Positions 1 through 18,891 of a DNA stretch of 43,999 nt are shown here, one piece after another (position 1 is the stretch's first letter; each line of letters opens with the position of its first letter). Made by a program: the position numbers and the translations under genes. The stretch is taken from positions 1 to 43,999 of IMG/VR virus record IMGVR_UViG_3300027782_002738; one strand, written 5' to 3'. This DNA is from a virus. The notes under the pieces are model-generated. The model was not told where the DNA came from. It worked only from the letters and a program-made list of their open reading frames with translations, and did no database searches.

Positions 1-3000
1 CCCGTCGACTCTAACAACACGATTTTTCAGTCCTTTAGTCACGTTCAGTAAGTGTTCGTAGTTCTCGTCAGCTCCGGTTTCACCGTTACTTAGGAAGACT
101 ATATCCAGCGGCTTTGACTGTCCTATCTTTGTTGCTTTAGCAATGTATGGATAATCATACAATTCTTTTTCAACATAATCGTTAGCTTCTTTGGGTACAA
201 CAATACGTGTGCCTCCCATATTTGTAATCAATATGTTCTTAGATTCTTTAGACCACATACTGATGGGTTCATCATTGATATCTGGTGCGATCAAATTATC
301 ACTTGTAGTAAAAACAGCATAAGGGAAGTTATAAGTATGCTTTTTGAAATTCAAATGTGTGTCTGCATCAGTCACAAAACTAGGGGCAGGTAAACGTTTT
401 ACTTTCTGATGCTGGTTGAAATTGATTTTTTCAATACTTTCTAACTTATCTAAATCTTCTACAAGAATACGTAGCTTGTTTACATTAATAAAGAATGTAT
501 CTCCAAACTTCTGTTTATCACTAGGGAATACATGTAATTGCTCTAATGAGAACGGGTCGCATATATAAGTGAAGTCAAAGTTAGTATAATCACAAATAGA
601 ACTACATACCCAGATATAATGGTCTTTTTTAATGCCCAACTCATAAAGCATGTTCTTCATTGTGGTCAAGTAGTCATTTTCATATTTTATTGTATAAACG
701 TTTTCACGTTTAGTTTTACTTTCAATTAATGATACAATATCATTAACTCCGTCATTACCATAATCAATTAAGTATACATCATATAAGCAATTGCTAGCGA
801 TAGCACGTTTTGTTTTTACAAAGTTCAAGTTACTTAAGTGTTCAATAATTTTAACATACTTTGTATCTTTGTCAAAGGTTTCTTTATTAACCATAAACGT
901 GCTACCCCAATGACTCCATTGAGTTCCAAACACATGAACCATTGTCATCTGCCATGGATTAGGATAATAATTAAAATCAAAATTAGTATAATCTAATTCA
1001 CTATTCAATATCCAACACAGTTCAGTTGTAGATTTATTAATACAGCGATTGATAGTATCAACCCAACTGTTTAGATAACGTGTTTTTTGTAATGTAGGGA
1101 ACTGTAGTTTAAGTTGTTCGTATCTATTAGCTGATTCTTTATTACCTTTATCTACAAAGAACATATCAGGTTTTTTAAATAAATTAGCTAATGTATAAGC
1201 ATCAAGTTTCTCATCTTTAACCCAGTTAATTTCTCTATGACCTTTTGCCCACATATTAGCATTAACAAAATACGTTTGTGTAGTTTCACTTTCGCTTGAA
1301 CCAAATGCATGTATATATTGCGCCTGTTGAATATCCGGTCTCCAATTGAAATCAAATTTACCATAGTCAATTTTGTTGTTTAGTGCCCAGAATATTTCAT
1401 CTTTATGTTGATTTACTAATGCTTCTAGTGTTGTTTCAATATAGTATTTAGGATAGTCAACAAATATATCTTTTTTAACTTGTTCTAAGTTAACAACTTC
1501 AGTTGCACCTTCTACTATATAACGTGGACCATTATTAGGATCTGCGATAGTACCAAATTGATAGATATAAGCCGGGCTGGTAGCGTCGGGGTGCCAACTA
1601 AAATCAAAATCAGTCTCATCAAATCCTGCAGGTATAATCCAGTTAGTTTTATTAGGCAAATGTTTTGCTTTAATGATATCTATATACTTGATAGGGGTCG
1701 TTTCGTTACATAATGGTGCTGTGAAAACAGGCCCATTTGTTTTTTGCCATTGTGTTCCAAATTGATATACATAGGGTTTGTCTTCAATATCAGGATGCCA
1801 ACTAAAATCAAACTCACTAGTATCTAACCCTTCAGGTATAAACCAATGAGTCATATCTTGTTTGACTTTTGCTATAGGATAGTCTAAGTATTTTGTTTCT
1901 GTAGCACCTTCTACAGTAAATTTAGGTCCACCTGTTTTACTCCATGTGCTAGGGAATTGATAGACGTACGGTGGCTCGGTATCATCAGGATGCCAGCTAA
2001 AATCAAATGATGATTGTTCTACATTTCTTGGAATAAGCCAATTAGTAAATCTCCATGCCACTACTTGTGCTTTAACAGAGTCAATGTATTTTAATTCAGT
2101 TGCACCGGGTACTATATAGCGAGGACCACCTGTCTTTTGATGTACGGTACCAAATTGATATATGTATGGTGGATCATGTGGATTAGGTTCCCAACTAAAA
2201 TCAAAACTATTCTGTATGACATAAGGAGGTATTTTCCAATTATCCATGCATAGTTTACGTGTAGCACGTTCTTCCATGTATTTGTACTCAGTTGCTCCTG
2301 CAACAACATATTGAATAGATATTTTATCTTCAGGTTTATTCCATTGATTTCCCCAAGCATATATGTATGGGGGATCCCACGGGTCGGGGTGCCAAGAATA
2401 ATCTATTCCATCAGAATTTTCTAAATGTTCAAATCTAGTACTGTTGGGTAAAAACTTTGCCCTCATTGATATATCTTCAATGAATTTATATTCTGTTGCC
2501 CCCGGAACATGATATTCAACTGTTGGCATAATTTCGGCTATATATTGAGTATTACCAAATACATAAATAAATGCAGGTTCACGTGGATCAGGTCTCCAAC
2601 TAAAATCAAAACTGGTTTTATCTATTTCGTAGTTTATTTTCCATTTATCCCATTCAGGTAATAACTCAACAGTATCACCCATATACTTACGTTCAGTGGC
2701 ATCTTTACAATGATATTCTAGTGTGGGTTTTAATTCTGCTGGTATAAATTTATTTCCCCATGTATAGATATAAGGAGGACTAGATGGATCTGGGTGCCAA
2801 CTAAAATCAAATTTATTTTCATCTACTAGGTCTAATAATACCCAATTATTATTTTTTAAGTTTTTTCTATATATAGGTTCAACATCAGCACGATATATAA
2901 TTATCTCACTATCTTGTTTTGAACATAACCAAGTGCCACTATCTTTTTGATATGGACTAGGCCATACATTGTTATGTTCACCTGTCCAAACTTCTTCATC

Positions 3001-3174
3001 GGGTAAGAAATCAAAATCCCAATCCCAATCAAAATTAGAATAATTGCAGTATTCATTAATTATCCAAAAATGTTCGGTGGTACATTGCTGTCTAGCATCA
3101 GCTAAATCAATTGCGTGTTTTTCTCTGGGGTGAGCGTTGGGTTTACTACCGTAATAAAATACATCTCTAAGCAT
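1..3174 (-). CDS. Partial large repeat protein (FDFSWHPDP repeats) with start of a GT-A-like domain; 3' end off the left edge
   Basis: The frame is open from an ATG at 3174 through base 1, giving 1,058 codons with no stop, so the C-terminus lies outside the window. The start is fixed by an upstream in-frame gap of 8 bases after the carbamoyltransferase stop. The protein is built from eleven copies of a repeat centred on F-D-F-S-W-x-P-D-P, at about residues 55, 121, 191, 260, 323, 390, 455, 524, 606, 732 and 865. Typical copies continue PPYIYQFG...KTGGP...GATE.KYID. The last residues visible (LDIVFLSNGE...RVVRVDG) resemble the N-terminus of the GT-A-like protein at 17938-18891, so a sugar-transfer-type domain probably follows. 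There is no signal peptide or membrane segment in the visible part. Function is unknown; similar repeat motifs occur, as far as I recall, in uncultured marine phages. The repeats are aromatic and acidic, which would suit carbohydrate or protein binding, but that is inference. Confidence 0.85.
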   Translation of the reverse strand, partial: MLRDVFYYGSKPNAHPREKHAIDLADARQQCTTEHFWIINEYCNYSNFDWDWDFDFLPDEEVWTGEHNNVWPSPYQKDSGTWLCSKQDSEIIIYRADVEPIYRKNLKNNNWVLLDLVDENKFDFSWHPDPSSPPYIYTWGNKFIPAELKPTLEYHCKDATERKYMGDTVELLPEWDKWKINYEIDKTSFDFSWRPDPREPAFIYVFGNTQYIAEIMPTVEYHVPGATEYKFIEDISMRAKFLPNSTRFEHLENSDGIDYSWHPDPWDPPYIYAWGNQWNKPEDKISIQYVVAGATEYKYMEERATRKLCMDNWKIPPYVIQNSFDFSWEPNPHDPPYIYQFGTVHQKTGGPRYIVPGATELKYIDSVKAQVVAWRFTNWLIPRNVEQSSFDFSWHPDDTEPPYVYQFPSTWSKTGGPKFTVEGATETKYLDYPIAKVKQDMTHWFIPEGLDTSEFDFSWHPDIEDKPYVYQFGTQWQKTNGPVFTAPLCNETTPIKYIDIIKAKHLPNKTNWIIPAGFDETDFDFSWHPDATSPAYIYQFGTIADPNNGPRYIVEGATEVVNLEQVKKDIFVDYPKYYIETTLEALVNQHKDEIFWALNNKIDYGKFDFNWRPDIQQAQYIHAFGSSESETTQTYFVNANMWAKGHREINWVKDEKLDAYTLANLFKKPDMFFVDKGNKESANRYEQLKLQFPTLQKTRYLNSWVDTINRCINKSTTELCWILNSELDYTNFDFNYYPNPWQMTMVHVFGTQWSHWGSTFMVNKETFDKDTKYVKIIEHLSNLNFVKTKRAIASNCLYDVYLIDYGNDGVNDIVSLIESKTKRENVYTIKYENDYLTTMKNMLYELGIKKDHYIWVCSSICDYTNFDFTYICDPFSLEQLHVFPSDKQKFGDTFFINVNKLRILVEDLDKLESIEKINFNQHQKVKRLPAPSFVTDADTHLNFKKHTYNFPYAVFTTSDNLIAPDINDEPISMWSKESKNILITNMGGTRIVVPKEANDYVEKELYDYPYIAKATKIGQSKPLDIVFLSNGETGADENYEHLLNVTKGLKNRVVRVDG
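490..3030 (-). repeat. Eleven protein-level tandem repeats, period about 65-70 residues
   Basis: The repeat core F-D-F-S-W-x-P-D appears on the plus strand as variants of aaaatcaaa. The spacing is 195-210 bases for the eight upstream copies, lengthening to about 250, 380 and 400 bases for the last three. Two subtypes are visible: subtype I ends in PPYIYQFGT...GGP.Y.V.GATE.KYID, and subtype II in HVFG or HVFPS...TFFINV. Copy 5' of all (SNFDWDWDFDF) and copy 4 (IDYSWHPDP) are divergent. Confidence 0.85.
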
Positions 3175-3182
3175 TCATATAC

Positions 3183-4670
3183 TTATGAAATTACAGGAAC
3201 ATTGTAAAGTTTTTCAAATCTATCAGCATCCTTTCTATCATTAACCATTGGTTCACCTCGTATGTTTAATGATGTGTTTAACAACATTGGGCAACCTGTC
3301 AATATATACCATTTCTCTAATAGTTCTCTAATACCCGATCCGTCTTTTGGTACAGTTTGCACACGACTGGTATTATCATAGTGAACAATAGCCGGAAATA
3401 ATTCAGGTAATCTACATCTACTGATAACTTGCATATATCTACTATTACTAAAACCTTTAGGCATATCAAAATAAGTATCAGCATATTCCTCTAATATAAC
3501 AGGGGCAAATGGTCTAAACTTTTGTCTACGTTTAATTTCATTTACTTTATCTTTTATTTCACTTCCTCTTGGGTCTGCAAGTAAACTTCTATGTCCAAGG
3601 GCTCTAGGACCGAACTCAGCACGACCGCTAGCCACACCAACAATGCCAGTGGTATTAAGATGATCCAATAACTTATTAACAGGGTACAGACCAGGGATAT
3701 TATGACCAAGATAAGCATCAGTCCAATTAAGCTGTTTACCGTAACCCAAAGCAGCGGCTCCAAGACTAGAACCAGCATCGCCAGGATTAGGAATAATCCA
3801 AATGTTGTCATAATATTCTCCTAACAATCTATTTGCTAAACAATTTAATGCCACGCCACCGCCATACACTAAGTTCTTACTAGTCCCTAGCATTCGTGCT
3901 TTACTAATTACTGACATTATCATTTGTTCAACTATTAATTGTGCGCTATGGGCAATATCCATATCATCTGCACCTTTGATAAAATCATCAGGTACACCTA
4001 TATGTAGATTTTCTTTAAATGCCACATCACTAAATGATTCTATTAGAGTATTAGACATTTCTCGTAAAGGTCTAGTATTACCATATGCTGCCATACCCAT
4101 CAGTATATATTCTTCATCTAATGGTTTTAGGCCAGCCCGTTTAGTCATTGCTGAGTAAAACAACCCAATACTATCTGGATAATGTCGTCCCCATAGTTTT
4201 TTATATTTTGCTATCCCATTCTCATACCATGCATTATAAATGCTTATAGTGTCAAACTCACCTATAGCATCAATTACGACTACGGTAGCATCATTGTAGG
4301 GACTTGTTTGAAAGCCTGCAGCCGCATGACTTAAATGATGATTATGAGTATGAACTTTACCACTGTCAGTTATTTTATTCAATAACTCTTTACCTATAAG
4401 TTGTTTAGCTGAAATGTGTGCGAATGAGGGTTTTTCTCCGCTATATAGTTGTCGTAAATATTTTATTAACGGACGCTCATAGTAATGAACTTCAATATCA
4501 CGTGAGGTGGCATATGCTAACGCATCTGTTACTATATCTATACTTAAATGTTTATCGTGTTTATGTTTAGTATAGCGTTCACTATGTCCAGCAAACAATA
4601 TATTGCCGGTACTATCTATCAGACTTATAGCAGAGTCATGAAAGCCCGCAGATATCCCTAAATAATTCAT
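3183..4670 (-). CDS. Carbamoyltransferase, NodU/CmcH/TobZ family
   Basis: The protein has 495 residues and matches the O-carbamoyltransferase family, which transfers a carbamoyl group from carbamoyl phosphate, via carbamoyl-adenylate, to a hydroxyl of a sugar or natural product. The N-terminal Kae1-like ASKHA domain opens with NYLGISAGFHDSA (His11). It carries the H111-H-L-S-H115 metal site, D134-A-I-G, GMAAYG (192-197) and YGGGVALNC (269-277). The YrdC-like carbamoyl half contains GVASGRAEFGPRALGHRSLL (345-364), K384-F-R-P-F-A-P390 and NTSLNIRGEP (465-474). Length is slightly shorter than the usual 550-600 residues, mostly at the C-terminus. Start is the ATG 1 base after the stop of the 32-aa gene, so the two are probably translationally coupled. 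In this context a carbamoylated sugar is the most likely product. Related genes occur in cyanophages. The family call is firm; the acceptor is unknown. Confidence 0.93.
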   Translation of the reverse strand: MNYLGISAGFHDSAISLIDSTGNILFAGHSERYTKHKHDKHLSIDIVTDALAYATSRDIEVHYYERPLIKYLRQLYSGEKPSFAHISAKQLIGKELLNKITDSGKVHTHNHHLSHAAAGFQTSPYNDATVVVIDAIGEFDTISIYNAWYENGIAKYKKLWGRHYPDSIGLFYSAMTKRAGLKPLDEEYILMGMAAYGNTRPLREMSNTLIESFSDVAFKENLHIGVPDDFIKGADDMDIAHSAQLIVEQMIMSVISKARMLGTSKNLVYGGGVALNCLANRLLGEYYDNIWIIPNPGDAGSSLGAAALGYGKQLNWTDAYLGHNIPGLYPVNKLLDHLNTTGIVGVASGRAEFGPRALGHRSLLADPRGSEIKDKVNEIKRRQKFRPFAPVILEEYADTYFDMPKGFSNSRYMQVISRCRLPELFPAIVHYDNTSRVQTVPKDGSGIRELLEKWYILTGCPMLLNTSLNIRGEPMVNDRKDADRFEKLYNVPVIS

Positions 4671-4671
4671 A

Positions 4672-4770
4672 TCAATATATAAAAGGATCTCGTTTTTTTA
4701 ATTCTTTTAAACGTTTGCGATATTTTATGTACTCACGTAATTTTCTAAACCAGCCAAATATATTCATCAT
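4672..4770 (-). CDS. 32-aa basic peptide upstream of the carbamoyltransferase
   Basis: A short frame runs from ATG 4770 to a TGA at 4672-4674, encoding 32 residues beginning MMNIFGWFRKLREY and ending KELKKRDPFIY. Composition is amphipathic: a hydrophobic, aromatic N-terminus (IFGWF) followed by a run of Lys/Arg-rich helix, with no cysteine. The stop sits 1 base before the carbamoyltransferase ATG. A GGAT weakly resembling a Shine-Dalgarno lies just upstream, and an ACTAAATA octamer ends 20 bases before the start. A second ATG follows immediately (4767). The pattern suggests a real small gene rather than a spacer; I recall short Lys-rich peptides ending in RDPFIY from other marine phages, which cannot be verified here. 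Possible roles are a membrane-associated peptide or a leader. Function is unknown. Confidence 0.6.
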   Translation of the reverse strand: MMNIFGWFRKLREYIKYRKRLKELKKRDPFIY

Positions 4771-4780
4771 TTTAATCCAT

Positions 4781-4788
4781 CATAAATA
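4781..4788 (+). promoter_or_regulatory. Candidate T4-like late promoter CATAAATA
   Basis: The octamer CATAAATA matches the T4 late consensus TATAAATA at seven of eight positions and lies 37 bases upstream of the GTG start at 4826. It faces a minus-strand candidate 2 bases away, so the two cassettes may fire divergently. The call rests on resemblance and position only; AT-rich DNA yields chance matches. Confidence 0.4.
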
Positions 4789-4790
4789 TC

Positions 4791-4798
4791 TATTTAGT
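4791..4798 (-). promoter_or_regulatory. Candidate late-promoter-like octamer ACTAAATA
   Basis: On the minus strand ACTAAATA ends 20 bases before the ATG of the 32-aa gene. It shares CTAAATA with the octamer in front of the minus-strand operon at 21055, and differs from the T4 late consensus mainly at the second and third positions. Confidence 0.35.
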
Positions 4799-4813
4799 AA
4801 ATCAAAATATCAC

Positions 4814-4817
4814 AGGA
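4814..4817 (+). promoter_or_regulatory. Shine-Dalgarno AGGA that sets a GTG start at 4826
   Basis: AGGA is followed after 8 bases by GTG. No comparable site precedes the in-frame TTG at 4715, and the 37 codons it would add overlap the candidate divergent promoters and the opposite-strand 32-aa gene. Confidence 0.6.
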
Positions 4818-4825
4818 ACTTAATA

Positions 4826-5884
4826 GTGGATAACGTAAATTATGAATTTACCCCGGGCAAACCAATACGCACATACGGGGCAAACGGAACATGGAGAGAT
4901 TGGAGCACTGATGAACTAGTAGGTGCTAAATTAAATTATCTTGAGGGTTGGAAATGCGGTGCCGGAGTTGATAGCTTATTCATTGATATGGATGGGGGTG
5001 TATGGACTGCTAGCTGTCGTGTAGGTGGTAAATTGGGTAGCGTTTGGGATGATTTTATTGTCCCTGAAGATTGGATTGATTGTACTAAAAACGTATGCAG
5101 TTGTGGTGCTGACTTATTCATACCCAAAACTAGCATCATAGAATTTAAACCGATACTAAGAAAAGGTCAGGGATTACCTGCTCAACCTGAATTACGTAAT
5201 GATAACTTAACAGAATATGTTGGTATGGAACGTACTCATGCTAGCACACAAAAACAAATATATTGGGAAATAGGTCGTAGATGTAACTATGACTGTAGCT
5301 ATTGCTGGCCATGGATTCATAATAACACAGATCCTCATAAGTCATTAGAAGAACTAATGAAAGCCACACACTTGATTGAGAAAAAATTCACTAAAGGCGA
5401 TAGCGTTAACTTCATTATCAGTGGAGGAGAACCCACTGTTAACAAAGATTTCCTAGATTGGTTACGTTACTTAAATGCATGTGGGCATCATGTTAGTTTA
5501 CATAGCAACGGAAGTCGTTTACCTGACTATTACAAAGAAGTTATACATTACGGTGACTTGAATTTAAGTGTTCATTATGAGTTCTATGACAGAAAAAAGT
5601 TTGTTAAAGTAGTTGAAGCTATTGCCAAAGAGAAAGCAGAACATGGAGATTGCGGCCATTTAGAAGTTAAATTTATGATGGCTCCTCACAACCGTGATGA
5701 AACATTAAGTTTAGAAACTGAGTTAAAGTCATTGCCGCACTTTAGTGATTATTGTACATGGGCTATTGTTCCTATTCGCGGAGATTTGAATAACAAAACT
5801 AGTATGCCAAATACGGGATCAGGTAGTGAAGTAATGGAAGGCTATACTAAAGAAGATTATATATTATTTGGGGATAGAAAATGA
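4826..5884 (+). CDS. Radical SAM enzyme with N-terminal (permuted) SPASM-like auxiliary-cluster domain
   Basis: The predicted protein is 352 residues from the GTG start chosen on Shine-Dalgarno grounds. The radical SAM core holds the cluster motif C153-x3-C157-x2-C160, followed by SGGEPT (199-204) and LHSNGS (225-230), which are typical SAM-binding and strand motifs. Unusually, the auxiliary cysteine-rich domain precedes the core: C44, C64, C86, C91 and C93, with WKCGAG, CRVGGKLG and CSCG. The same five-cysteine domain with identical spacing sits at the C-terminus of the enzyme at 16994-17938, so the two are circular permutations. It presumably binds a second iron-sulfur cluster used in substrate positioning or electron transfer. 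Its stop overlaps the next start by four bases (ATGA). The reaction is not predictable; in this family peptide and sugar substrates are both known. Confidence 0.88.
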   Translation: MDNVNYEFTPGKPIRTYGANGTWRDWSTDELVGAKLNYLEGWKCGAGVDSLFIDMDGGVWTASCRVGGKLGSVWDDFIVPEDWIDCTKNVCSCGADLFIPKTSIIEFKPILRKGQGLPAQPELRNDNLTEYVGMERTHASTQKQIYWEIGRRCNYDCSYCWPWIHNNTDPHKSLEELMKATHLIEKKFTKGDSVNFIISGGEPTVNKDFLDWLRYLNACGHHVSLHSNGSRLPDYYKEVIHYGDLNLSVHYEFYDRKKFVKVVEAIAKEKAEHGDCGHLEVKFMMAPHNRDETLSLETELKSLPHFSDYCTWAIVPIRGDLNNKTSMPNTGSGSEVMEGYTKEDYILFGDRK

Positions 5885-6546
5885 AAAAAACTCAAATATT
5901 TGATGGGTTCTTAACAAATGATGAGATATTTGAATTAGAAACTAATTTTAGAAAGTATGTGGACATGGACTTGTGGCCTGCACCATATGACGGCAATAAA
6001 TGTCAAGCATTATATGTGTATCCGGGTCCGACAAATAAAGATTTGGTGTGTGACTTTTTAACAACCAAAATTAACAATCTATTAAAAGAGGAACATTTTT
6101 GTGACAGTTGGCATATATTAAATTCATATCTACCATACGGTATACATACAGATGCATATGATGATAGTGACCCGAATGCATATTTGCACAGTAAGAAAGA
6201 AGGATTTGAGTTAGGTTACACCTTTCTTATCCCCTTATCAGATTATAATAGTAATACAGTAGTGTTTAATGAACGTGCTGAATATACTAAAAATTGGCAT
6301 AATTGGAGAGATAAAGAAAACATAACACCTTGTAATTTTATTGAAACAGATACATATAATAGATATTTGACACATGAAAGTCAAGCACAAATTAGTTATT
6401 TTTCTATAGATACAATTTATCCATGGAAAAAAGGAAATTTATTAGTGATGCCGCGTGAAGCATTTCATTGTAGCGATAATTTTTTAAAAAATAATATTTT
6501 TGAAAAAAGAGCATTAGTTGGATGGTCGTATATAAAAAATGATTAA
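5881..6546 (+). CDS. 2-oxoglutarate/Fe(II)-dependent oxygenase-like protein
   Basis: This 221-residue protein has the facial-triad pattern of the 2OG-Fe(II) superfamily. H89-T-D91 lies in PYGIHTDAY, the distal His196 in REAFHCSDNF, and the 2OG-anchoring Arg210 in KRALVGWSY. The strand YTFLIPLSDYNSNTVVFN before the second half fits the double-stranded beta-helix core. Length is close to phage and bacterial prolyl-hydroxylase-like members. Such enzymes hydroxylate proteins, sugars or small molecules. It overlaps radical SAM genes on both sides (4 and 8 bases), so it is co-translated with them and probably acts on the same substrate. A hydroxyl it created could be a site for the carbamoyl or sulfo groups, but that is inference. 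Confidence 0.82.
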   Translation: MKKTQIFDGFLTNDEIFELETNFRKYVDMDLWPAPYDGNKCQALYVYPGPTNKDLVCDFLTTKINNLLKEEHFCDSWHILNSYLPYGIHTDAYDDSDPNAYLHSKKEGFELGYTFLIPLSDYNSNTVVFNERAEYTKNWHNWRDKENITPCNFIETDTYNRYLTHESQAQISYFSIDTIYPWKKGNLLVMPREAFHCSDNFLKNNIFEKRALVGWSYIKND

Positions 6547-7768
6547 AAATGTTTTGTGTACTGCTCCAATAGCATCAGTACTAATTGATACACATAAGGG
6601 TGTTAGACCATGTTGTTACTTTCAAGGTAAATTTATGGGCAACATAAAAGAACAGTCGTTATCTGAAATCATTAAGAGTGAACGATGGACTGAATTAAAA
6701 CGTAAAATGTACGATAAAGAATGGCCAAGTGAGTGTTTAGATTGTAAAGCTATTGAAGATTCTAGTGGATTTAGTCTTCGCAAAGCATACACTAATGGTA
6801 CAATTGATGTTGAAGGTTGGGAAAATAACAATCTAACTTATATTGAATTTAATGGTAGTAATATTTGTAATCTGTCTTGCCTTCATTGCCATGCCGGGTT
6901 CAGTAGCAAGTGGGTTATTGACAGTAAAAAAGCAAGAGACTTAGCAGAATCATATTCAGATGATAAAAAAGAAAGAATATATAATTTCCGTTCAATCGTT
7001 GAATTTACCGACAATACTAGATATCAAACTACAAGAATGCATTTACCAAATCCTAAACTAGTAGTAGAAAATTTGAAACAGCTTGATTTGTCAAATATTC
7101 GTACTATTAGCTTTAAAGGTGGCGAACCTTGTTTAAATTCTGAAACAGTTGCAGTATTAAAATACATGGACGAGCAAGGGTTATTGAAAAATATAAACAT
7201 TTATATTGTCACTAATGGAACGTATATCACAGACGAAATAATTAACTTATTAAGCAAATGCAAACATGTAGAATTTTTGATATCTGTAGACGGAGTCGGG
7301 GAGTTATTTAATTATATTAGATACGGGGACGCTAAATTTGATGATATAGAACCAGTAATTGCTAAGGTTAATGTCCTTAACAATGTCAGTATACGTACTA
7401 GTGCTTCGGCCATGAATTATAACGCATTCAGTCTTGTTGAAATACGTGATTGGAGGAATGAATTAGCTAAGAAATATGATAAGATAGTTACTGAAACAGG
7501 GTTTCAAAACGTTGTACAACAACCAGCATATCTATCCATGAACACTTTATCTGATAGTACTCGCCAATATTTAATAGAATACTATACAACCCATAACATT
7601 AATAAAGAGTTTGATGTTGTTATTAATACATTAAATAGTATATATCTCGGAGATGAGATACATAGACAGTGGGTAGAATACACTGAGCTTATGGAAACTA
7701 TCAGGAAGAACAATATTTTAAATATTGTTCCAGAATTACAACATGAGATAAAAAGAAATGCTAGATAA
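6539..7768 (+). CDS. Twitch-domain radical SAM protein (copy 1)
   Basis: The 409-residue protein has an N-terminal twitch/SPASM-like cysteine motif, C7, C25-C26, C66 and C69, with the family phrase VRPCCYFQGKFMGNI and SLSEIIKSERW. The radical SAM core follows with C110-x3-C114-x2-C117 (ICNLSCLHC) and KGGEP (193-197). A C-terminal VVQQPAYLSMNTLSD matches the P..LS..LP motif of four minus-strand relatives. The architecture is that of the twitch domain-containing radical SAM family, often found in bacterial polysaccharide and surface-modification loci; substrates are largely uncharacterised. Its start overlaps the oxygenase by 8 bases and its end overlaps the next gene by 11. It is the most divergent of the five copies and the only one on the plus strand. 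Confidence 0.9.
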   Translation: MIKNVLCTAPIASVLIDTHKGVRPCCYFQGKFMGNIKEQSLSEIIKSERWTELKRKMYDKEWPSECLDCKAIEDSSGFSLRKAYTNGTIDVEGWENNNLTYIEFNGSNICNLSCLHCHAGFSSKWVIDSKKARDLAESYSDDKKERIYNFRSIVEFTDNTRYQTTRMHLPNPKLVVENLKQLDLSNIRTISFKGGEPCLNSETVAVLKYMDEQGLLKNINIYIVTNGTYITDEIINLLSKCKHVEFLISVDGVGELFNYIRYGDAKFDDIEPVIAKVNVLNNVSIRTSASAMNYNAFSLVEIRDWRNELAKKYDKIVTETGFQNVVQQPAYLSMNTLSDSTRQYLIEYYTTHNINKEFDVVINTLNSIYLGDEIHRQWVEYTELMETIRKNNILNIVPELQHEIKRNAR

Positions 7769-10328
7769 AGATACCTGGATTGCTCAAAATTTAATACCAA
7801 AAAACACAGATATAGAAAAAATAAGAAAGCCCAGACTTAACGTAAAATCTGTAGATGTTAACACATATACTAGAAAGACTAAATTTACTATATGCGTATT
7901 AGGTAGCTGGGCAATTTATATGCCCCCTTATAATATTGCTAGACTGTCTAGTTTGATAAGAGAGGCAGGCTATAAAACATCAGTATATGATTTTAATGTA
8001 GATTCGCATTATGCTCTTAAAGATGCAAATTCTGATTTAGCAGACGCCTGGAACGGGGCAAACTATTGGTGGTGGCAAGATCCAGAATATTACATACGCA
8101 TCCATCCCACATATGAACCAATATTAAGAGAATACCTAGAAACATTATTAGCAACAGACTTGGACATATTAGGCTTTAGCACATACTATACAAATGTATT
8201 ACCTACTAGGTGGATGATTAAAGAAATCAGGAAAAGACGTCCGGATATTACAATCGTTATGGGAGGACCTGAATGCCATGAACACTATTATAAAAAACCA
8301 GATGAGGTAGATTACTATTTCATCGGGGAAAGTGAACAAAACATATTAGATTTTTTAGAGAATTGGGAAAATGGTATCAAACCATTACAACCTGCAATAG
8401 GAAGTTTATATAGTGATACACGTATAGACATTGATAGTTTGCCGTATCCTGATTATAGTGATTTTGACCTAACTAAGTATTGGGGGAGGAACAGTATATG
8501 CGCTGAGATTAGCAGGGGATGTATTGCTAAATGTAGCTATTGCACTGAAGTATATTACTGGAAATTTAGAGACAGGGGTGCTAATAACGTAGTAGATGAA
8601 TTAGAATTTCAAGTTAAAAAATATGGTATAAATTTTGTTTCATTTGTTGACAGTTTAATGAATGGTAACTTAAAAGAATTTAGAAATTTCTGTGAAGAAT
8701 TAAAAAGAAGAAAGCTTGGTTTTACTTGGTGGGGTTATGCTAGAGCAGATGGCAGGATGGATCTAGCCTTTTATCAGGCCATGGCTGATGCAGGGTGTCA
8801 GGGCTTTAATTATGGAATTGAGACCGGAAGTGATAAAGTTCTTAAAGCTATTAATAAAAAGAATACAGTAGCAGAAATAAATCAAAACTTAATTGACTCA
8901 GAAAAAGTAGGAATGAAGGTTTCTGCTTGTTGGGTTATAGGTGCACCCGGTGAAGATATTGAGGCTTTTACACATAGCTTTAATATGCTTTGGAATCATA
9001 GAAGTAGAATCATGGCAGTCAGCCCTGGACCAGGCCTAGGTGATAATATGGGTTCAGCATATGACGATAGAGAAAAATATAACTTAAACCCCAGACATAC
9101 ATCTTGGCTAGGAGGATGGTATACGTTAGATTTAACTAATACAAAATTACATAGATTTATTAGAATTAAATTAATGCATATGTGGTTATATATTTGTAAA
9201 GAATACGGTGGTACCTTGACTAATGTACATAAAGTAGGTAATATTACCGATCATTTTACTGTTACTTTTGATAGCGAATATATTAACAATTCAGTTGAAT
9301 ACGAGAACTTTGATTTTAATATTATTAAGTCAGAGCACGGTGAATTTGCTGATAGTGTAATGAATGAGGTATTTGGCTTCTTACGTATGTTATGGAGAGT
9401 GCGTGGCGGGTATGAAATTTCAATTAAATTTAATAATTACCTAGATCATAAAGATTTTATTTTTGCTATAGTACCGTCTACTATGAAATATGAAGCAGAT
9501 ATTTGGTTTAAAATTAATGATGAGGGAAATTATGAAGTAAAAAATCACTATAGATTTATAAATAATTTCAAGGATATTATAGACACTAATGGGTTTGAGC
9601 ATACCTATGAATCTACAGGAGTATGGACTTCTGGTACCAAAGTAAAAGCTAATAAAGTTTTTTATATCAAATCAGAAGATAATGTTTTTACTAACAAATT
9701 AACATTAGGAGGGTGCTTCTCATCATTAGGTATACAAGATAGGTTACTATTAAATAATATTGCTAGACGACTCCCTGCTAATAGCATAGCAGTAGATACA
9801 TCTTCAAATATGGGCGGCAGAGTATCTATACTTAATGATTCACCATCCATAGTAGAAATACATGCTTTTAATGAGTTTAACAATGAAAATATTAAAAAAG
9901 AGTTTGGATATATAAGGCCATGGGTAGAACGTCAATTAATAGATATATGCATAGAATCAAACATAAATGAAGCAGACGGTGCAGTGTATCTTCAAACTTT
10001 AGAAAGAGCATTAGAAGATGACCCTTCTGGTATATTATTCCATCAACATATTACTGGTCGTACTAATAAATTAATACTACATGATAGTGACTTGGATGTT
10101 ATAGATAAACCTATAGATTTGTGTATTATATCTAAATTTGATATACAATCATTGACAGCACTGGTGTCTAAATGGAAATCAATTATAAAACAAAATGGTT
10201 ATATTATTGTTCATCCATATAATGAGAAAGAATCAAAAGATGTATATGATACCTATAATTCAGTACTGGCTGAAGAGTTTGATTTTGTGAGTACTCGGGA
10301 ATCTATCGGGGTTTTTAAAAAGCTATGA
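7758..10328 (+). CDS. Cobalamin-binding radical SAM protein fused to a methyltransferase-like C-terminal domain
   Basis: The 856-residue protein begins, after a short linker, with a B12-binding Rossmann-like domain (about 42-205): FTICVLG, PPYNIARLSSLIREAGY, DILGFS, IVMGGPE, YFIGESE. No clear DxHxxG base-off motif is visible, which is common in this class. The radical SAM core (about 245-420) has C255-x3-C259-x2-C262, GIETGS (353-358) and VIGAPGED (393-400). Residues about 430-630 are an unassigned middle region. Residues about 640-856 resemble a class I methyltransferase-like fold: GGCFSSLGIQDRLLLNN, MGGRVSIL, DLCIISK, IIKQNGYIIVHPY, though the SAM motif is degenerate. Members of the class methylate unactivated carbons or rearrange rings. 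It overlaps the previous gene by 11 bases and its 3' end overlaps the convergent hydrolase gene by 6. Confidence 0.88.
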   Translation: MLDKDTWIAQNLIPKNTDIEKIRKPRLNVKSVDVNTYTRKTKFTICVLGSWAIYMPPYNIARLSSLIREAGYKTSVYDFNVDSHYALKDANSDLADAWNGANYWWWQDPEYYIRIHPTYEPILREYLETLLATDLDILGFSTYYTNVLPTRWMIKEIRKRRPDITIVMGGPECHEHYYKKPDEVDYYFIGESEQNILDFLENWENGIKPLQPAIGSLYSDTRIDIDSLPYPDYSDFDLTKYWGRNSICAEISRGCIAKCSYCTEVYYWKFRDRGANNVVDELEFQVKKYGINFVSFVDSLMNGNLKEFRNFCEELKRRKLGFTWWGYARADGRMDLAFYQAMADAGCQGFNYGIETGSDKVLKAINKKNTVAEINQNLIDSEKVGMKVSACWVIGAPGEDIEAFTHSFNMLWNHRSRIMAVSPGPGLGDNMGSAYDDREKYNLNPRHTSWLGGWYTLDLTNTKLHRFIRIKLMHMWLYICKEYGGTLTNVHKVGNITDHFTVTFDSEYINNSVEYENFDFNIIKSEHGEFADSVMNEVFGFLRMLWRVRGGYEISIKFNNYLDHKDFIFAIVPSTMKYEADIWFKINDEGNYEVKNHYRFINNFKDIIDTNGFEHTYESTGVWTSGTKVKANKVFYIKSEDNVFTNKLTLGGCFSSLGIQDRLLLNNIARRLPANSIAVDTSSNMGGRVSILNDSPSIVEIHAFNEFNNENIKKEFGYIRPWVERQLIDICIESNINEADGAVYLQTLERALEDDPSGILFHQHITGRTNKLILHDSDLDVIDKPIDLCIISKFDIQSLTALVSKWKSIIKQNGYIIVHPYNEKESKDVYDTYNSVLAEEFDFVSTRESIGVFKKL

Positions 10329-10332
10329 TAGC
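10317..10332 (-). terminator. Possible short intrinsic terminator at the convergent junction
   Basis: On the minus strand GCTA-TCA-TAGC is followed directly by TTTTT. The TAG stop of the SGNH gene lies inside the hairpin. The stem is only four base pairs, so it would be weak. It is the only hairpin-plus-T-run I see where two transcripts meet. Confidence 0.3.
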
Positions 10333-11222
10333 AAATTATTGTTTAATATGTGATTTTTTATGATGTCTACTAACATTTTAGTAGCCTGTAAATTGGGGTG
10401 ACGATTATCTTTTTTAATATACCATTGCCATTGAAATGTTTTTATCATATATTGTGTCCAAGAATCTGAAGCAATGGAAGCATGCTGGTCATTTTGGGGA
10501 TCACCAAAAGTTAACCAATTATTACTATCAATAACTGTCGGTAAGAGATTGTTTAATCTTATATGATTTCCAATAACTCCCTTCAAATTTACCTTAAACA
10601 TATCTTTAATACCTGCATGATTATGGTCATAAAAATCATCAATTGATCCTAAACTTCTGTAAAAGGTATATGAAATATTCTGTGTTTTTAAAAAGCTTTC
10701 TAATAATATAACATTTTTAAAATAATTTAGATACCAATCATTGTCTGTATCTTCTACAATGTTTCCTATTATTCGGTTTTTTAACTGATTCCACTTTGGT
10801 GAAGTTTTTTCAACATGATTAACATGAATGTTTTCCCAAGTACTACCAGAAATAAACAATAGCTTTCTTTCTCTAACTGTCCACCCAACAATAATATGGT
10901 AATTATGTCTATTTTCCTTATGTATGCTTAAAACCTGATTAATGGTAGTCATACATATGTTATCATTAGAATTACCATCTTCGGATAAATCAATGATTTC
11001 TGTATTTAATTTATTAGCAAGCATCCCGCGTTGATTAAACATTGGCCTATATGATTTTCTATATTCATCTAATAAAACCCCAAAGTTTGAACTTGAGTTA
11101 CTAGTAATATTCCATCCATATGCCGGGTCGTTTTTATCCAATCCCTTGTGATTTAAAAATTGTTCCCATACTATTTCGTCCCCGGCAATCCAGCTACAAC
11201 CATTTAAAATAATTTTTTTCAT
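10323..11222 (-). CDS. SGNH/GDSL-type hydrolase-like protein
   Basis: The 299-residue protein starts MKKIILNGCSWIAGDE, where Ser10 fits the block I nucleophile of phage SGNH-like proteins (NGCSxxxG). Gly83 and Asn86, in DLSEDGNSNDNI, fit the oxyanion-hole blocks. D272-N-R-H275-P near the C-terminus fits the block V Asp-x2-His pair. Family members remove or transfer acyl groups such as O-acetyl esters on sugars. It is the last gene of the twelve-gene minus-strand operon and overlaps its upstream neighbour by ATGA. Its 3' end overlaps the convergent plus-strand gene by 6 bases. Catalytic assignment is by motif only. The middle of the protein (about 100-260) shows no recognisable family. Confidence 0.72.
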   Translation of the reverse strand: MKKIILNGCSWIAGDEIVWEQFLNHKGLDKNDPAYGWNITSNSSSNFGVLLDEYRKSYRPMFNQRGMLANKLNTEIIDLSEDGNSNDNICMTTINQVLSIHKENRHNYHIIVGWTVRERKLLFISGSTWENIHVNHVEKTSPKWNQLKNRIIGNIVEDTDNDWYLNYFKNVILLESFLKTQNISYTFYRSLGSIDDFYDHNHAGIKDMFKVNLKGVIGNHIRLNNLLPTVIDSNNWLTFGDPQNDQHASIASDSWTQYMIKTFQWQWYIKKDNRHPNLQATKMLVDIIKNHILNNNLLS

Positions 11223-12367
11223 ATAGGTTTAATTTTTATTATTTTTTTATTTATTTCCTGTTCTCTTGCTAACTGTTTAGTATACCAGTTTGCTATCTGT
11301 TTATGTACAAAATGATTTAACTTCTCCCAATTACCGTGTGCTACATGGTTTGAATTATTATTTGGTTTAAGTTCTTCTACTAATGGCTCCAAAGTCTGTA
11401 ACATAACACTTATATCTTTACTTGGTAATTTCCAAATGCTTAAATGCTCAGGATGATGTATGGTATTATACCACAAATGAACTTCATTATCTGTTGTAAA
11501 TTTTACAAAATTTGGCATCTCCCACCAATTGTTATTCATAGGATTAACCATCACACTTAGTCCACGATTATTGTCATGGCAATATTTTCTAAACGTCTGA
11601 AAGTTTTCCATCAAATCATCAAAGTTTCCGTTAATCCGTATTGATTCATAGTTATCTTTATCTAAACTATCAATGCTAATATTCAAATGAATGTTACACT
11701 TTGTTAGTATTTCCCTAACTTGCTTATTATATACAGTACCATTAGTAGCTATATTTATACGTAATGATGGGTTTATTTTTGCTACTAACATACAAATATC
11801 ATATACAATTTTTTGTGCGAAGGGTTCGCCACCGTTAAAACGTAGTTCTTCTAAATGAGGAATAAACTCTTTTAATTGTTCTACAAAGCTATCATCATAT
11901 ACCACTGGCATGGGGGGTAGTTTATCCCTGTTTTTTCTAATACCAGAACTTAATCTACCTTCACACATTACACATTCTAAATTACATTGATTGCTTAATT
12001 CTAACTCTAATAAGGTTGGATATTCTTTTACACTAAAGTTATCATATGCCAAAGCCAACGGCCACGTATCTGCTTCTATCTTTTGTTTACATACTCTGCA
12101 TTCACTATTAAAGATACCTTCTTTAAGATTATTTCTATACTCATTAAACTTTTCCCCAAACCATATGTCTTTAATACTACGATCAGGTCGCCATGTATCT
12201 AAGTATCCTACTAATAGCCAGCAAGGTGCAACACGACCTTCAGTAGTAAAGTACATATTGTTATAAGGTGCAACACACGGACTAATTGTGTTTATTTCTC
12301 TACTTTGGTCAAACTCTTTACGTTTAACATTATATGAAGCAATCTGTTCTTGTGTAAGTTTATTCAT
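11219..12367 (-). CDS. Twitch-domain radical SAM protein (copy 5)
   Basis: This 382-residue protein has twitch cysteines C31, C49, C90 and C93; unlike the others it has a single Cys at the second site (VAPCW, not CC). The radical SAM motif is C128-x3-C132-x2-C135 (QCNLECVMC), followed by NGGEP (178-182), ATNGT and SIDSLD. The C-terminal motif is IHHPEHLSIWKLP. It ends in a lysine/isoleucine-rich tail (KKIIKIKPI). It overlaps the previous gene by 8 bases and the SGNH gene by ATGA. The loss of one of the paired cysteines may change the ligation of its auxiliary cluster. Substrate is unknown. Confidence 0.9.
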   Translation of the reverse strand: MNKLTQEQIASYNVKRKEFDQSREINTISPCVAPYNNMYFTTEGRVAPCWLLVGYLDTWRPDRSIKDIWFGEKFNEYRNNLKEGIFNSECRVCKQKIEADTWPLALAYDNFSVKEYPTLLELELSNQCNLECVMCEGRLSSGIRKNRDKLPPMPVVYDDSFVEQLKEFIPHLEELRFNGGEPFAQKIVYDICMLVAKINPSLRINIATNGTVYNKQVREILTKCNIHLNISIDSLDKDNYESIRINGNFDDLMENFQTFRKYCHDNNRGLSVMVNPMNNNWWEMPNFVKFTTDNEVHLWYNTIHHPEHLSIWKLPSKDISVMLQTLEPLVEELKPNNNSNHVAHGNWEKLNHFVHKQIANWYTKQLAREQEINKKIIKIKPI

Positions 12368-13535
12368 CTTTGTATTCCATAATTAATTTGCCCCATTCTC
12401 CAAATGTAGTTTTAAAATCTTGCTGTCTAAATTTATCTAATTCTTCGTTCTTATCAATAAATTCGTTAATTAGTGTATCATTATCTCTAGTTAAATGCAA
12501 GAAGTTTTTAACAATATCAAATTCCTTAGCTGTTAAACGGACTGATACTAATTCTTTTAATCTGTCGGGTAGGTTCTTTATGCTATGACTAGGAGGATAG
12601 TGCAGTATATTATAATAAGTGAAAATCTCTAATGTATTGGCCCATTCTAAGTAATCTGTTAAATAATATACATTAAATAAACTAACAGTAGGACATAATG
12701 TTAACGATAAATTACTGTTAGATTTTCTTAATTCTATAAATTTAGAAATGTTTTCTTGTATAGTATTCCACTCAGTAGGATAACGTTCATACTCTAGGCG
12801 AGGGCCTAAATCATCAACAGATATACACATTGTTATTTGTTTAAATTGAAGAATATGGTCTAAGAATTTCTTATTATACAATGTACCATTCGTATTCAAC
12901 AAGATAGTGATATTCTTTGCCTTGCCTGATTTAATCAACAAATCTAGCACTTTAATATTTTCAGGACTAGCCATTGGTTCACCGCCGGTGATTTCTAAAT
13001 GAACTAAATCTTCTGCCCACGCATTAATAACTTCTTCATTTGCAGTACCTAATATCTTATTACTAATCCAATAATCGCTACCTTGAACTGTGATATTTAA
13101 CCGTTCTTGGAATTCTTTTAAAAAGGTTGAACTTGCTTGCGGGCCGCATATTCTACACTTTAGATTACACACATTGTTTAGTTTTAAATCCATTGCACGA
13201 GGTCCACTATCGGCTATGGGTTTGAATACCATATTAGTAGTATCTACTTTTTTATCTATTGCCCATTGAACTCTAAAACTAGGAATGCCGGCAGCTTCTT
13301 CATCCCAGCAACTTTGACATTCTTTAGGCTTTTTACCATCAAGAAATGATTGTCTTAATGTTTGAAATCGTATATCATTCCATAACACATCTAATCTACC
13401 CTCTTTCATATTAGGCAATTGATATTCATTAGAAGGATTAGGTTGTGCAAATTTACAGCACGGGCGTAACGACCCGTTAACATCAGTTGATATGTTAATC
13501 CAGGGCAATGCACAGAATGTATTAGGTAAACTCAT
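12360..13535 (-). CDS. Twitch-domain radical SAM protein (copy 4)
   Basis: The 391-residue protein opens MSLPNTFCALPWINIS with twitch cysteines C8, C26-C27, C73 and C76. The core motif is C123-x3-C127-x2-C130 (VCNLKCRIC), with TGGEP, LNTNGT and ISVDDLG. It is closely similar along its whole length to the neighbouring 13532-14914 product, for example DLKLxNxCNLKCRIC and YNILHYPPSHSIKNLP against FNMVHYPHHFSLVNLP. The pair therefore looks like a tandem duplication that has since diverged. It overlaps both neighbours (8 and 4 bases). It lacks the 55-residue N-terminal extension of its sister. Confidence 0.92.
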   Translation of the reverse strand: MSLPNTFCALPWINISTDVNGSLRPCCKFAQPNPSNEYQLPNMKEGRLDVLWNDIRFQTLRQSFLDGKKPKECQSCWDEEAAGIPSFRVQWAIDKKVDTTNMVFKPIADSGPRAMDLKLNNVCNLKCRICGPQASSTFLKEFQERLNITVQGSDYWISNKILGTANEEVINAWAEDLVHLEITGGEPMASPENIKVLDLLIKSGKAKNITILLNTNGTLYNKKFLDHILQFKQITMCISVDDLGPRLEYERYPTEWNTIQENISKFIELRKSNSNLSLTLCPTVSLFNVYYLTDYLEWANTLEIFTYYNILHYPPSHSIKNLPDRLKELVSVRLTAKEFDIVKNFLHLTRDNDTLINEFIDKNEELDKFRQQDFKTTFGEWGKLIMEYKDE

Positions 13536-16302: not shown

Positions 16303-16997
16303 GTTATTAACTTTTTTATAAAATCTTTTACTTTTTCTGGCTCTTTTATTATATCATAAGGATTATTGGGTAATTGCTTTTTAAGGCGAATATTTGAATT
16401 AATTGGTCTTTGTAGGTATGTTGTTAAATCTTCTATACAATTCTCATATCTGATAATGTCAGCATCAATTCCATATTCTTCAATAACTTTATGAAATTTT
16501 AAAATATCCTTATATAAAAATTCTACATTGGTTAAATTATAGGTAGATAGGTCTATCAGATCCTTATGTATTCCATCATCAGTTGACCATTTGTTAGTAG
16601 CCTCAGCAACTATCCAACTTAATAAATGATGTTCTATATTTTCTCTTTCTATAATTACAAATTTAAACCCTAATTGCTTCAACGTATCTAGTATTTCTTG
16701 TAAGAATGAAAAAATTTTATTTGTAAAAAATACTTTTAAAACCAATGATTGTTGTTGATTGCTATTTTTTAATAGGGCAAGAACATAATCAATTTGTTGT
16801 TGGTGAGAATTAAACTTTGGAAATATTGATGATACATATAAAAAGTTGTTTTTTTGAATTATATTATACTTATGACAATGTGTAAATGGTTCTGCTAAAT
16901 TTTGCATATTACCTGCAATATTTGAATTAATTATACCTGAAATATACTGACTGCCACATCTGGGTAATCCCAATAGACAATATCTATGTACACTCAT
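16299..16997 (-). CDS. Sulfotransferase-family protein
   Basis: The 232-residue protein begins MSVHRYCLLGLPRCGSQYIS. The LPRCGSQYI stretch (11-19) is the 5'-PSB/P-loop that binds PAPS in sulfotransferases. Further along, LKVFFTN..FSFLQEIL and FKVIIERENIEHHLLSWIVA match the PAPS 3'-phosphate-site region (RENI..HLLSW) of the bacterial family. The length is typical of small phage and bacterial members. It would move a sulfuryl group from PAPS to a hydroxyl or amine of a sugar or lipid. It lies between radical SAM genes with four-base overlaps on both sides, which ties it to the same pathway. Activity is inferred from the fold motif. Confidence 0.78.
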   Translation of the reverse strand: MSVHRYCLLGLPRCGSQYISGIINSNIAGNMQNLAEPFTHCHKYNIIQKNNFLYVSSIFPKFNSHQQQIDYVLALLKNSNQQQSLVLKVFFTNKIFSFLQEILDTLKQLGFKFVIIERENIEHHLLSWIVAEATNKWSTDDGIHKDLIDLSTYNLTNVEFLYKDILKFHKVIEEYGIDADIIRYENCIEDLTTYLQRPINSNIRLKKQLPNNPYDIIKEPEKVKDFIKKLIT

Positions 16998-17938
16998 AGT
17001 TCTTTCGTACTCATTATGTCAAAATTACAATGACACATTGTTTTATTACATACTACTGGCGTTTTAGGTACTTCGAAATTCTCAAAGATATTACCAATCT
17101 TTCCGCCAACTCTACACCAACCTCGGTATATGTTACCGCCCAAATCTACAATAATTTGCTCCACACCAGCATAACATTTCCACCCACTCCAATCATTAGT
17201 TTTTTGACTAATAAATCTATGTGCGCTTGAAACAACTTCCGTACTATCTTCTTTAATCATCTTCATTGCGCCGCGATAATAATCAAACGACTTGGTATAC
17301 TTGATATGCTTAACAATCAACTCATGTTGTTTATCAAAAATCTTCTTTTGAAATTCATCATAATCATACAATGTATCACCAAAATCATGTATCAATGGTT
17401 GCAATGCCATACTAATATTACCAATACCCTTAACTTTATTAGCTACAGCATAACAAAAGTCAAATTTATCCGGACTCATCATAATGTTTACATGAGTACG
17501 TACATCATCATGTAATACTTTTACTACCTGGACAAAATGGTCGGCATCAGCAAACTCGGGATGAAAGCTTAAACATACATGGTCAAAGTATTGTTTGTTA
17601 TCTTCCCACCAACGTAATGTTCTGCTGCCATTGCTAATCAATCCTACTTTAGCACCCAATTCAGTACAATGCTTACATATCTCTACAAAATGTTTGTATA
17701 GCGTTACTTCTCCACCGGTTAATTCAAAGTAAACTTTGCGTGGCGCAACTTGTTCTACTACACGTGTAATGAATTCTTTAACTTTATCTAATTCAGGCCA
17801 TTTAATGTCGCCTGAATGAAGATTCTCTGGACAATAACTACATTCAAAGTTACACGTATTACCCATACACCAATTAACGACAAACCATTCTTCATGTGTA
17901 GGGTTACTGTGTGCTAACTTAATATAATTGTGTTCCAT
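16994..17938 (-). CDS. Radical SAM enzyme with C-terminal SPASM-like auxiliary-cluster domain
   Basis: The 314-residue protein (from ATG 17938; two residues longer from ATG 17944) has the radical SAM core at its N-terminus: C29-x3-C33-x2-C36 (TCNFECSYC), then LTGGEVT and LISNGS. The C-terminal domain carries C255, C275, C297, C302 and C304, in GWKCYAG, CRVGGKIG and CHCN. The spacing between these five cysteines is the same as in the N-terminal domain of the plus-strand enzyme at 4826-5884. The start at 17938 is preferred because AGAAGGA sits 5 bases before it. It overlaps the sulfotransferase-like gene by four bases and the upstream stop by TAATG. It presumably binds two iron-sulfur clusters. 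Substrate is unknown. Confidence 0.9.
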   Translation of the reverse strand: MEHNYIKLAHSNPTHEEWFVVNWCMGNTCNFECSYCPENLHSGDIKWPELDKVKEFITRVVEQVAPRKVYFELTGGEVTLYKHFVEICKHCTELGAKVGLISNGSRTLRWWEDNKQYFDHVCLSFHPEFADADHFVQVVKVLHDDVRTHVNIMMSPDKFDFCYAVANKVKGIGNISMALQPLIHDFGDTLYDYDEFQKKIFDKQHELIVKHIKYTKSFDYYRGAMKMIKEDSTEVVSSAHRFISQKTNDWSGWKCYAGVEQIIVDLGGNIYRGWCRVGGKIGNIFENFEVPKTPVVCNKTMCHCNFDIMSTKEL

Positions 17939-18891
17939 TACCATCCTTCTATTTTTCTAATAACATCCATCTCTTTTACTAGCGGCCCGAGATTATATTT
18001 ATCGGCACTATAATGACGTTTGAAGAACTTGCTTTGTCCTCCATCAAAATTATGCATTGGTAGTCCCAATTTGTTATTCAATGCGGCTCCGAGCAACGCT
18101 GATTCACGATCAGGATCTCTATGTGAATGTTCTTCCCATAATACTGTATAGTTATCAAACCATTGAACGTTAGCAGGATCCCATTCAGTAAGCATAGTCA
18201 TATATGTACCGAGACGTGCTCCATAGATAGCCCACTCCCCGTTTTCTACATCACGTCCTATATTATGCCAAATGGTTAAATTGTTTAAGTTGCGGCTTGC
18301 AACTGTTTCTTTTAATGCATCTACTGTGGGTTTTGCTCCACGGTCAAGAACCATTTTTACTCCTTCTCTGAATCCAGCTCGCCACGCTTGAAACGGAGTA
18401 TGATTAGGATAAGTAGTAGAGTAGCAATCATACATTGTCCAGTATAAGTTATCTTTGCTGTCTAAACAAAAGTCAGCTATCCGTGAAACATCACCTTCAG
18501 TCTGATGCTCATGTGTTTTCATTTCACGCACATAAGTTTTTGTCCAAGAACTCATTCCGCCATTACCATAGCGTAGTCCATTAATGTTGTTAATCGCTTT
18601 CCAACGATATTGCGCTATCTTATAGTTAGGATCTTTGTCTGTGAAATCTAATTGTAAGTTGAAGAAACTTTCTTCTGGCATATTATCGCCGTCAATTAGG
18701 ATGAAACGTTCAGTGTCACTTGCTTCACCTGCGGCTTTGTGTGCGGCATCACTGCCTTTAACACTATCGACACGTTTTGCCCAGGGCACCATGTTCTTAA
18801 TCTTTAACCAAAATTCTTCTTTTTGTGGCTCATCATAGCTGAGATAGACACAATCTAAATCAGCTACATCAATAATATCTTCAGAGTTCAT
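17938..18891 (-). CDS. GT-A-like glycosyltransferase domain protein
   Basis: The 317-residue protein starts, after ten residues, with DLDCVYLSYDE and PWAKRVDSVKGSDAAHKAAG, leading to FILIDGDN (63-70), a D-x-D in the place used for the nucleotide-sugar metal in GT-A enzymes. The second half (about 120-300) has PFQAWRAGFREGVKM, TIWHNIGRDVENGEWAIYGARLG and HNFDGGQSKFFKRHY, and belongs to no family I can name. The opening is similar to the visible C-terminal end of the left-edge repeat protein. Probably transfers a sugar in the cytoplasm; donor and acceptor are unknown. It overlaps the radical SAM gene downstream by TAATG and the 108-aa gene upstream by 11 bases. Confidence 0.7.
   Translation of the reverse strand: MNSEDIIDVADLDCVYLSYDEPQKEEFWLKIKNMVPWAKRVDSVKGSDAAHKAAGEASDTERFILIDGDNMPEESFFNLQLDFTDKDPNYKIAQYRWKAINNINGLRYGNGGMSSWTKTYVREMKTHEHQTEGDVSRIADFCLDSKDNLYWTMYDCYSTTYPNHTPFQAWRAGFREGVKMVLDRGAKPTVDALKETVASRNLNNLTIWHNIGRDVENGEWAIYGARLGTYMTMLTEWDPANVQWFDNYTVLWEEHSHRDPDRESALLGAALNNKLGLPMHNFDGGQSKFFKRHYSADKYNLGPLVKEMDVIRKIEGW
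17944..17950 (-). promoter_or_regulatory. Shine-Dalgarno AGAAGGA favouring the ATG at 17938
   Basis: The minus-strand AGAAGGA ends directly at the in-frame ATG at 17944 but leaves a 5-base spacer to the ATG at 17938, which also reads TAATG with the upstream stop. Confidence 0.55.

Follow-up and report, generated by a model that had tools for sequence, protein, structure and literature searches.

The window analyzed here is a 43,999-nucleotide stretch of viral DNA, a fragment of a virus record (IMGVR_UViG_3300027782_002738), and its left edge is occupied by a gene for a repeat protein. In the open reading frame listing, this gene extends from 3174 to 1 on the minus strand and encodes 1,058 amino acids with no stop codon before the edge, as a sequence-only reading of the window had reported; the C-terminus of the protein lies beyond. 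Immediately upstream, after a gap of 8 bp, is a gene for a NodU-like carbamoyltransferase (3183..4670, minus strand; Pfam PF16861, E 3e-46, and PF02543, E 6e-35). A gene for a stand-alone protein of 317 amino acids, hereafter the DGD protein, is located at 17938..18891 on the minus strand. This protein is a predicted GT-A glycosyltransferase and shares homology with the C-terminal domain of the repeat protein. The island between the two genes encodes radical-SAM, B12-dependent radical-SAM, and DUF6071 proteins, and in a relative it also includes a DegT-type aminotransferase. The island comes after a baseplate-wedge gene (a homolog of phrog_10646) and other putative virion genes, all of which are on the same strand as the repeat gene. 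Within the window, seven radical-SAM genes and a B12-binding radical-SAM gene are packed into 13 kb (4715-17944), and several of these overlap by a few bases.

Of 55 testable relatives, 40 have the carbamoyltransferase gene as the immediate upstream neighbor of the repeat gene, and the gap is mostly 7-11 bp; in the other 15 loci the two genes are not adjacent. The DGD protein is encoded in 38 of 40 contigs that carry the repeat gene; in the remaining two, the match comes solely from the repeat protein's own C-terminal domain. When the search is reversed, the repeat gene is found in 19 of 40 contigs with a DGD gene, although most of the others end within 5-28 kb, such that absence and truncation are indistinguishable. 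Where both genes are seen, they are 5-28 kb apart.

Eleven copies of the repeat had been counted from the sequence, and this number is borne out by a search with a profile of the window's own units together with profile-profile comparison. The copies comprise a degenerate N-terminal copy, seven units of 60-68 residues, and three longer copies. The unit profile recovers seven full units (residues 110-175, 177-242, 246-310, 312-375, 378-441, 443-509, and 511-570) with domain E values of 1e-30 to 1e-34, and weaker copies at residues 596-635 (E 1e-9) and 721-765 (E 2e-7). The copies at residues 37-54 and 855-890 do not rise above noise in this search and were joined to the others by profile-profile comparison. 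Successive copies are spaced by 67, 68, 67, 66, 65, 68, 84, and 125 residues, which agrees with the lengthening toward the C-terminus that had been noted. The spacing of the last three copies is longer because these are nearly complete domains of ∼130 residues (the first of them of intermediate length), not merely stretched repeats. Two subtypes of short unit had also been described and are indeed present: units 1-3 carry ‘..WGN/FGN...’ and three extra residues, and units 4-7 carry ‘QFGTxW.KTGGP’. The phrase F-D-F-S-W-x-P-D-P, said to be near-invariant, is found in its strict form in only two units of the window protein. The invariant positions lie in the core of the motif, (F)D(F)SW-x-P: among 400 sampled family units, the tryptophan and the proline are each present in 400 and the aspartate in 397.

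The modules follow one another along the minus strand. A degenerate GT-A-like module forms the N-terminus (residues 1-109; 2848..3174); it bears the motif FWIINEYCNYSNFDWDW, is linked to module M8 by profile-profile comparison (94.7%, E 6e-8), and is conserved in 76 family members. Next are short units 1 (residues 110-176; 2647..2847; domain E 3e-30), 2 (residues 177-244; 2443..2646; E 2e-30), and 3 (residues 245-311; 2242..2442; E 2e-30). Units 4 (residues 312-377; 2044..2241; E 9e-34), 5 (residues 378-442; 1849..2043; E 4e-33), 6 (residues 443-510; 1645..1848; E 1e-30), and 7 (residues 511-572; 1459..1644; E 1e-30) are also covered by a fold model. Module M8, of intermediate length (residues 575-666; 1177..1452), has profile-profile links both to the short units and to M9. 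Modules M9 (residues 667-798; 781..1176) and M10 (residues 799-934; 373..780) are each predicted to form a complete GT-A fold. A linker module (residues 935-1022; 109..372), which is conserved in complete relatives and has a dN/dS of 0.09-0.14, separates M10 from a C-terminal GT-A-like domain. Only the first 36 residues of this domain (LDIVFLSNGETGADENYEHLL...RVDG; 1..108) precede the window edge that cuts it, and homologous domains are present in relatives L002 and L073. A GT-like domain had been expected beyond the edge, and the relatives do have one. The protein of L002, which is 83% identical in the best segment, runs ∼185 residues past the window's end point, and these residues complete the conserved C-terminal domain.

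Relatives of the whole repeat protein are encoded in at least 115 viral stretches of IMG/VR, and relatives of the C-terminal domain in at least 283. The family is carried by more than 100 uncultivated phage contigs, which belong to a large and widespread group of freshwater phages, a family of large phages from lake water. Complete members have 1,039 to 3,070 residues and contain 6 to 34 units if the longer copies are included, or 5 to ∼31 by the strict short-unit set. The description of the family as undescribed holds for the curated sequence libraries: neither Pfam, NCBIfam, nor PHROGs yields a match to the repeat protein above the curated cut-off, and the best scores are noise. There is no match among the sequences of solved structures (PDB) and none in named phages apart from two chance matches at E 5; homologs of the DGD protein in named phages were likewise not found. 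However, two proteins of uncultured Caudovirales phages in BFVD/UniProt, A0A6J5L5L5 and A0A6J5LK21, are full-length structural matches (35% and 30% identity; E 4e-98 and 3e-80). Both are members of the family, and both were deposited as ‘Uncharacterized protein’ without annotation. Solo repeats in host or phage proteins, which the sequence-only reading had proposed to look for, did not emerge. A scan of 84,980 species genomes gave pattern matches but no confirmed cellular relative, and solo units in small open reading frames of related loci are only fragments of truncated members. The alignment of a single unit is too variable for a scan of the collection.

Profile-profile comparisons tie the internal modules to each other. 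The short unit matches M8 (98.9%, E 3e-17) and M9 (96.6%), M8 matches M9 (99.7%, E 3e-25), and M9 matches M10 (98.4%, E 6e-15). The short unit aligns only to columns 54-109 of M9. By this alignment, the short units retain the DxD-equivalent strand together with the sheet on the acceptor side, whereas the nucleotide-binding half is missing altogether.

Predicted structures point to the origin of these modules. The AlphaFold model of a short complete member, L073, has glycosyltransferases as its whole-model Foldseek matches, and its C-terminal domain resembles GT-A enzymes, with a Z score of 12 to B4GALNT1 and of 10 to SunS/SpsA. A model of window residues 309-934 (units 4-7 and M8-M10) has a mean pLDDT of 86. 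Foldseek searches with this model gave no match at E ≤ 0.001, the best being human LH3 at 5e-3, and it was a second comparison, with VIA-align, that assigned M9 and M10 to GT-A. In that comparison, M9 aligns to GT-A/nucleotidyltransferase chains with Z 9.8-10.2 over 122-131 residues, and M10 with Z 9.7-10.1 over 130-136 residues. A Rossmann-like nucleotide-binding half and a mixed sheet within one globular domain, as found in GT-A enzymes, are predicted for each of M9, M10, and the C-terminal domain. The sequence tie between the internal modules and the C-terminal domain is the weakest link and leans on the predicted folds: short units match this domain at 86% over 21 columns only, and M9 matches it at 5%. 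With sequence profiles and models taken together, the view that the repeats are degenerate pieces of a GT-A glycosyltransferase fold is well supported.

The C-terminal domain and the DGD protein are clearly homologous (hmmsearch E 2e-13; HH probability 100%, E 1.3e-40) and have a WRxxFRE helix in common. The DGD motif, an instance of the DxD motif of GT-A glycosyltransferases, is invariant in 66 of 66 sequences of the stand-alone paralog, which is predicted to be an active transferase. In the C-terminal domain, [A/G]-K-L takes the place of DGD in 88 of 89 sequences, and the lysine is therefore nearly invariant; the lone exception, in contig G011, is probably a DGD protein of two domains. That contig, from which L020 comes, carries, far from the main island, an open reading frame of 550 residues (C1:299228-300790) in which two relatives of the DGD protein (43% and 32% identical to it) stand in tandem. 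At the equivalent position, the N-terminal module has N-E-x, the short units mostly proline, M9 N-S-E (in 87-88 of 88 sequences), and M10 S-S-I/V; N-x-x is also recorded among the modules. The DxD motif, which binds metal and donor, is thus absent from every module of the repeat protein. Homology to a glycosyltransferase paralog combined with motif loss is the pattern of a pseudo-glycosyltransferase, with the activity of the paralog being predicted.

Copy number varies, in frame, by complete units and by blocks of units. Compared with the window's 7 units, its close relatives have 6, 8, and 9. The blocks are seen in large members: in L013, units 5-8 are duplicated as a block to give units 9-12, and a period of four units in both L013 and L035 reveals higher-order block duplications. 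In L027, the distance between best-matching units varies and includes three and ten units. For the N-terminus, units 3-7, M8-M10, and the linker, comparison of the window with its relatives yields dN/dS values of 0.08-0.23. All tested parts of the protein are under purifying selection, and the modules without DxD are therefore maintained rather than decaying. We also considered whether the length or unit number of the protein tracks the distance to the DGD gene, and hence the size of the tailoring island. The raw Spearman correlation is 0.64 (n = 64), but it mostly reflects shared ancestry, since it is weak with independent contrasts (r = 0.28, p = 0.04) and not significant with log values.

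The sequence-only reading had offered a scaffold, a glycan-binding protein, or a glycosyltransferase array as possible roles. The last proposal is correct with regard to ancestry, given the GT-A-derived repeats and the GT-A-like C-terminal domain. However, the evidence does not bear out a simple array of active transferases, because no module has DxD and the short units are without the nucleotide-binding half. Since all copies lack the usual metal-binding catalytic site, the protein is probably not a standard enzyme but one that holds a substrate, or brings it into position, for sugar-modifying enzymes encoded nearby. We favor, with a probability of about 0.5, a pseudo-glycosyltransferase array whose role is to bind an acceptor, either a glycan or a virion protein, and to position it for the DGD enzyme and the tailoring enzymes. 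The structural part of this proposal is well supported, and the functional part is what we infer. As sequence and prediction show, the modules are tandem copies derived from a GT-A fold, at least one of which is related to the DGD-bearing GT-A-type protein of the same island. The array itself would not carry out the usual metal-dependent transfer of sugar. Its repeated acceptor-side halves, in which invariant aromatic residues abound, may bind a repetitive acceptor, for which a growing glycan and a late-made tail or surface protein of the phage are candidates. The C-terminal GT-A-like domain could dock or stabilize the DGD transferase, and the acceptor would thereby be presented to this transferase, the carbamoyltransferase, and the radical-SAM tailoring enzymes.

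A more specific version of this proposal, which we regard as doubtful, is that the protein serves as a ruler or scaffold of variable length. The number of units would then determine how many acceptor sites along a repetitive glycan or tail protein are kept aligned for catalysis by a separate subunit. If this were true, then a glycosyltransferase would have been turned into a string of minimal acceptor-binding half-domains, forming a noncatalytic class of GT-A-derived repeats without known precedent; this we hold equally in doubt.

The absence of DxD is no proof that catalysis has been lost, because some GT-A enzymes, namely GT14 and the bacterial GT6 enzymes, also are without the motif and are metal independent (PMC3961637), and because A-K-L has a lysine that is almost never replaced. 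For the latter reason, the main rival is that the C-terminal domain, M9, or both are active metal-independent glycosyltransferases for which the short units form a substrate-binding arm. A conserved lysine would then replace the metal ion. The replacement of DxD in GT6 (NXN) and GT14 resembles that in M9 (N-S-E, itself nearly fixed) and in the C-terminal domain, although the likeness is one of motif position and not of sequence relation, and the repeat protein differs from these enzymes in having tandem repeats. The WRxxFRE helix held in common with the DGD paralog also fits an enzyme. However, a separate DGD paralog is already present in the same island, and the three domains each show a different substitution, a pattern that looks like loosened constraint on catalysis. 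We consider both metal-independent activity and the substitution of lysine for metal possible but unlikely.

Variable numbers of aromatic-rich repeats that expand in frame are reminiscent of adhesins, and the gene is on the strand of the baseplate-wedge and other putative virion genes. These features could indicate a lectin-like array displayed on the tail or capsid, whose repeats bind glycans of the host surface. We judge this to be improbable, given that the neighboring genes encode modification enzymes, that no tail-fiber domain or virion family was matched, and that the island encodes an enzyme-like homolog of the C-terminal domain. A role in the hypermodification of phage DNA bases by the carbamoyltransferase and glycosyltransferases of the island, with the repeat protein serving that pathway, is highly improbable. 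A phage NodU-type carbamoyltransferase is known to make 5-carbamoyloxymethylcytosine, but this pathway accompanies a thymidylate-synthase homolog with Asp177, a dCMP hydroxymethylase (PMC8670742). One thymidylate synthase each is encoded in 14 of 15 large contigs, and the three that were read all have the canonical LGLPFN motif, whose asparagine makes DNA carbamoylation unlikely. No hydroxymethylase-type thymidylate synthase was found in these 14 contigs, as far as the three sequences read can tell.

Catalytically inactive GT-A proteins have been recognized before, one example being CHPF of the CHSY3-CHPF chondroitin synthase. Both LH3 and CHSY3-CHPF are among the fold matches of the repeat-protein models. 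COSMC (GT31) is a catalytically dead GT-A protein that acts as a scaffold or chaperone of T-synthase (PMC7185993), and the dead accessory domain of LH3 has been suggested to recognize its collagen substrate (PMC6082870). Like the repeat protein, all three have a GT-A fold without the catalytic motif. In contrast to their one or two domains, the phage protein is a long array of truncated copies in variable number. The predicted folds of M9, M10, and the C-terminal domain resemble those of active GT-A glycosyltransferases such as E. coli K4 chondroitin polymerase (2z87), SunS, WrtF, and B4GALNT1. The repeat protein differs from these enzymes in the absence of DxD, in its up to ∼31 half-size units without the nucleotide-binding half, and in matching no Pfam or NCBIfam family. 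While inactive GT-A domains are already known, neither this repeat nor a variable-number array of truncated GT-A halves is described in the literature searched. Here, in widespread uncultivated freshwater phages, a catalytic fold has been cut down to a short half-domain that can be duplicated, and has been put to new use as a tandem array. If the units bind glycans, then they represent a new type of carbohydrate-binding repeat, one that gains and loses copies as whole units. The protein also provides a handle on modification islands with radical-SAM, aminotransferase, carbamoyltransferase, and glycosyltransferase genes beside phage tail genes.

Several other genes near the repeat gene or its relatives were observed. 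In the window, a 232-residue protein (16299-16997) has a P-loop-like GLPRCGSQYISG at its start and appears sulfotransferase-like by eye, with no Pfam match above noise. Adjacent proteins of 248 and 267 amino acids (19207-20753) include DxD-like stretches (EADM and DTDY) and are possibly further glycosyltransferases, although they match no Pfam glycosyltransferase family. A single open reading frame of 5,921 residues (24086-41851, minus strand), with no Pfam match in either half, is next to the baseplate-wedge homolog (phrog_10646). Downstream from the repeat gene in L031 (14280-16267) are genes for a Gram-negative porin (PF13609, E 4e-19) and a periplasmic binding protein resembling phosphate-binding proteins (PF12849, E 2e-38), and open reading frames of similar sizes (about 293-300 and 331-336 amino acids) recur in several loci. 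The porin sequence permits a guess that the host belongs to the Burkholderiales. In L004 (14078-15895) and L012 (7986-9812), the repeat gene is followed by a gene for a secreted-looking protein of 606-609 residues that has no Pfam match and has a long proline-rich and Ser/Thr-rich center.
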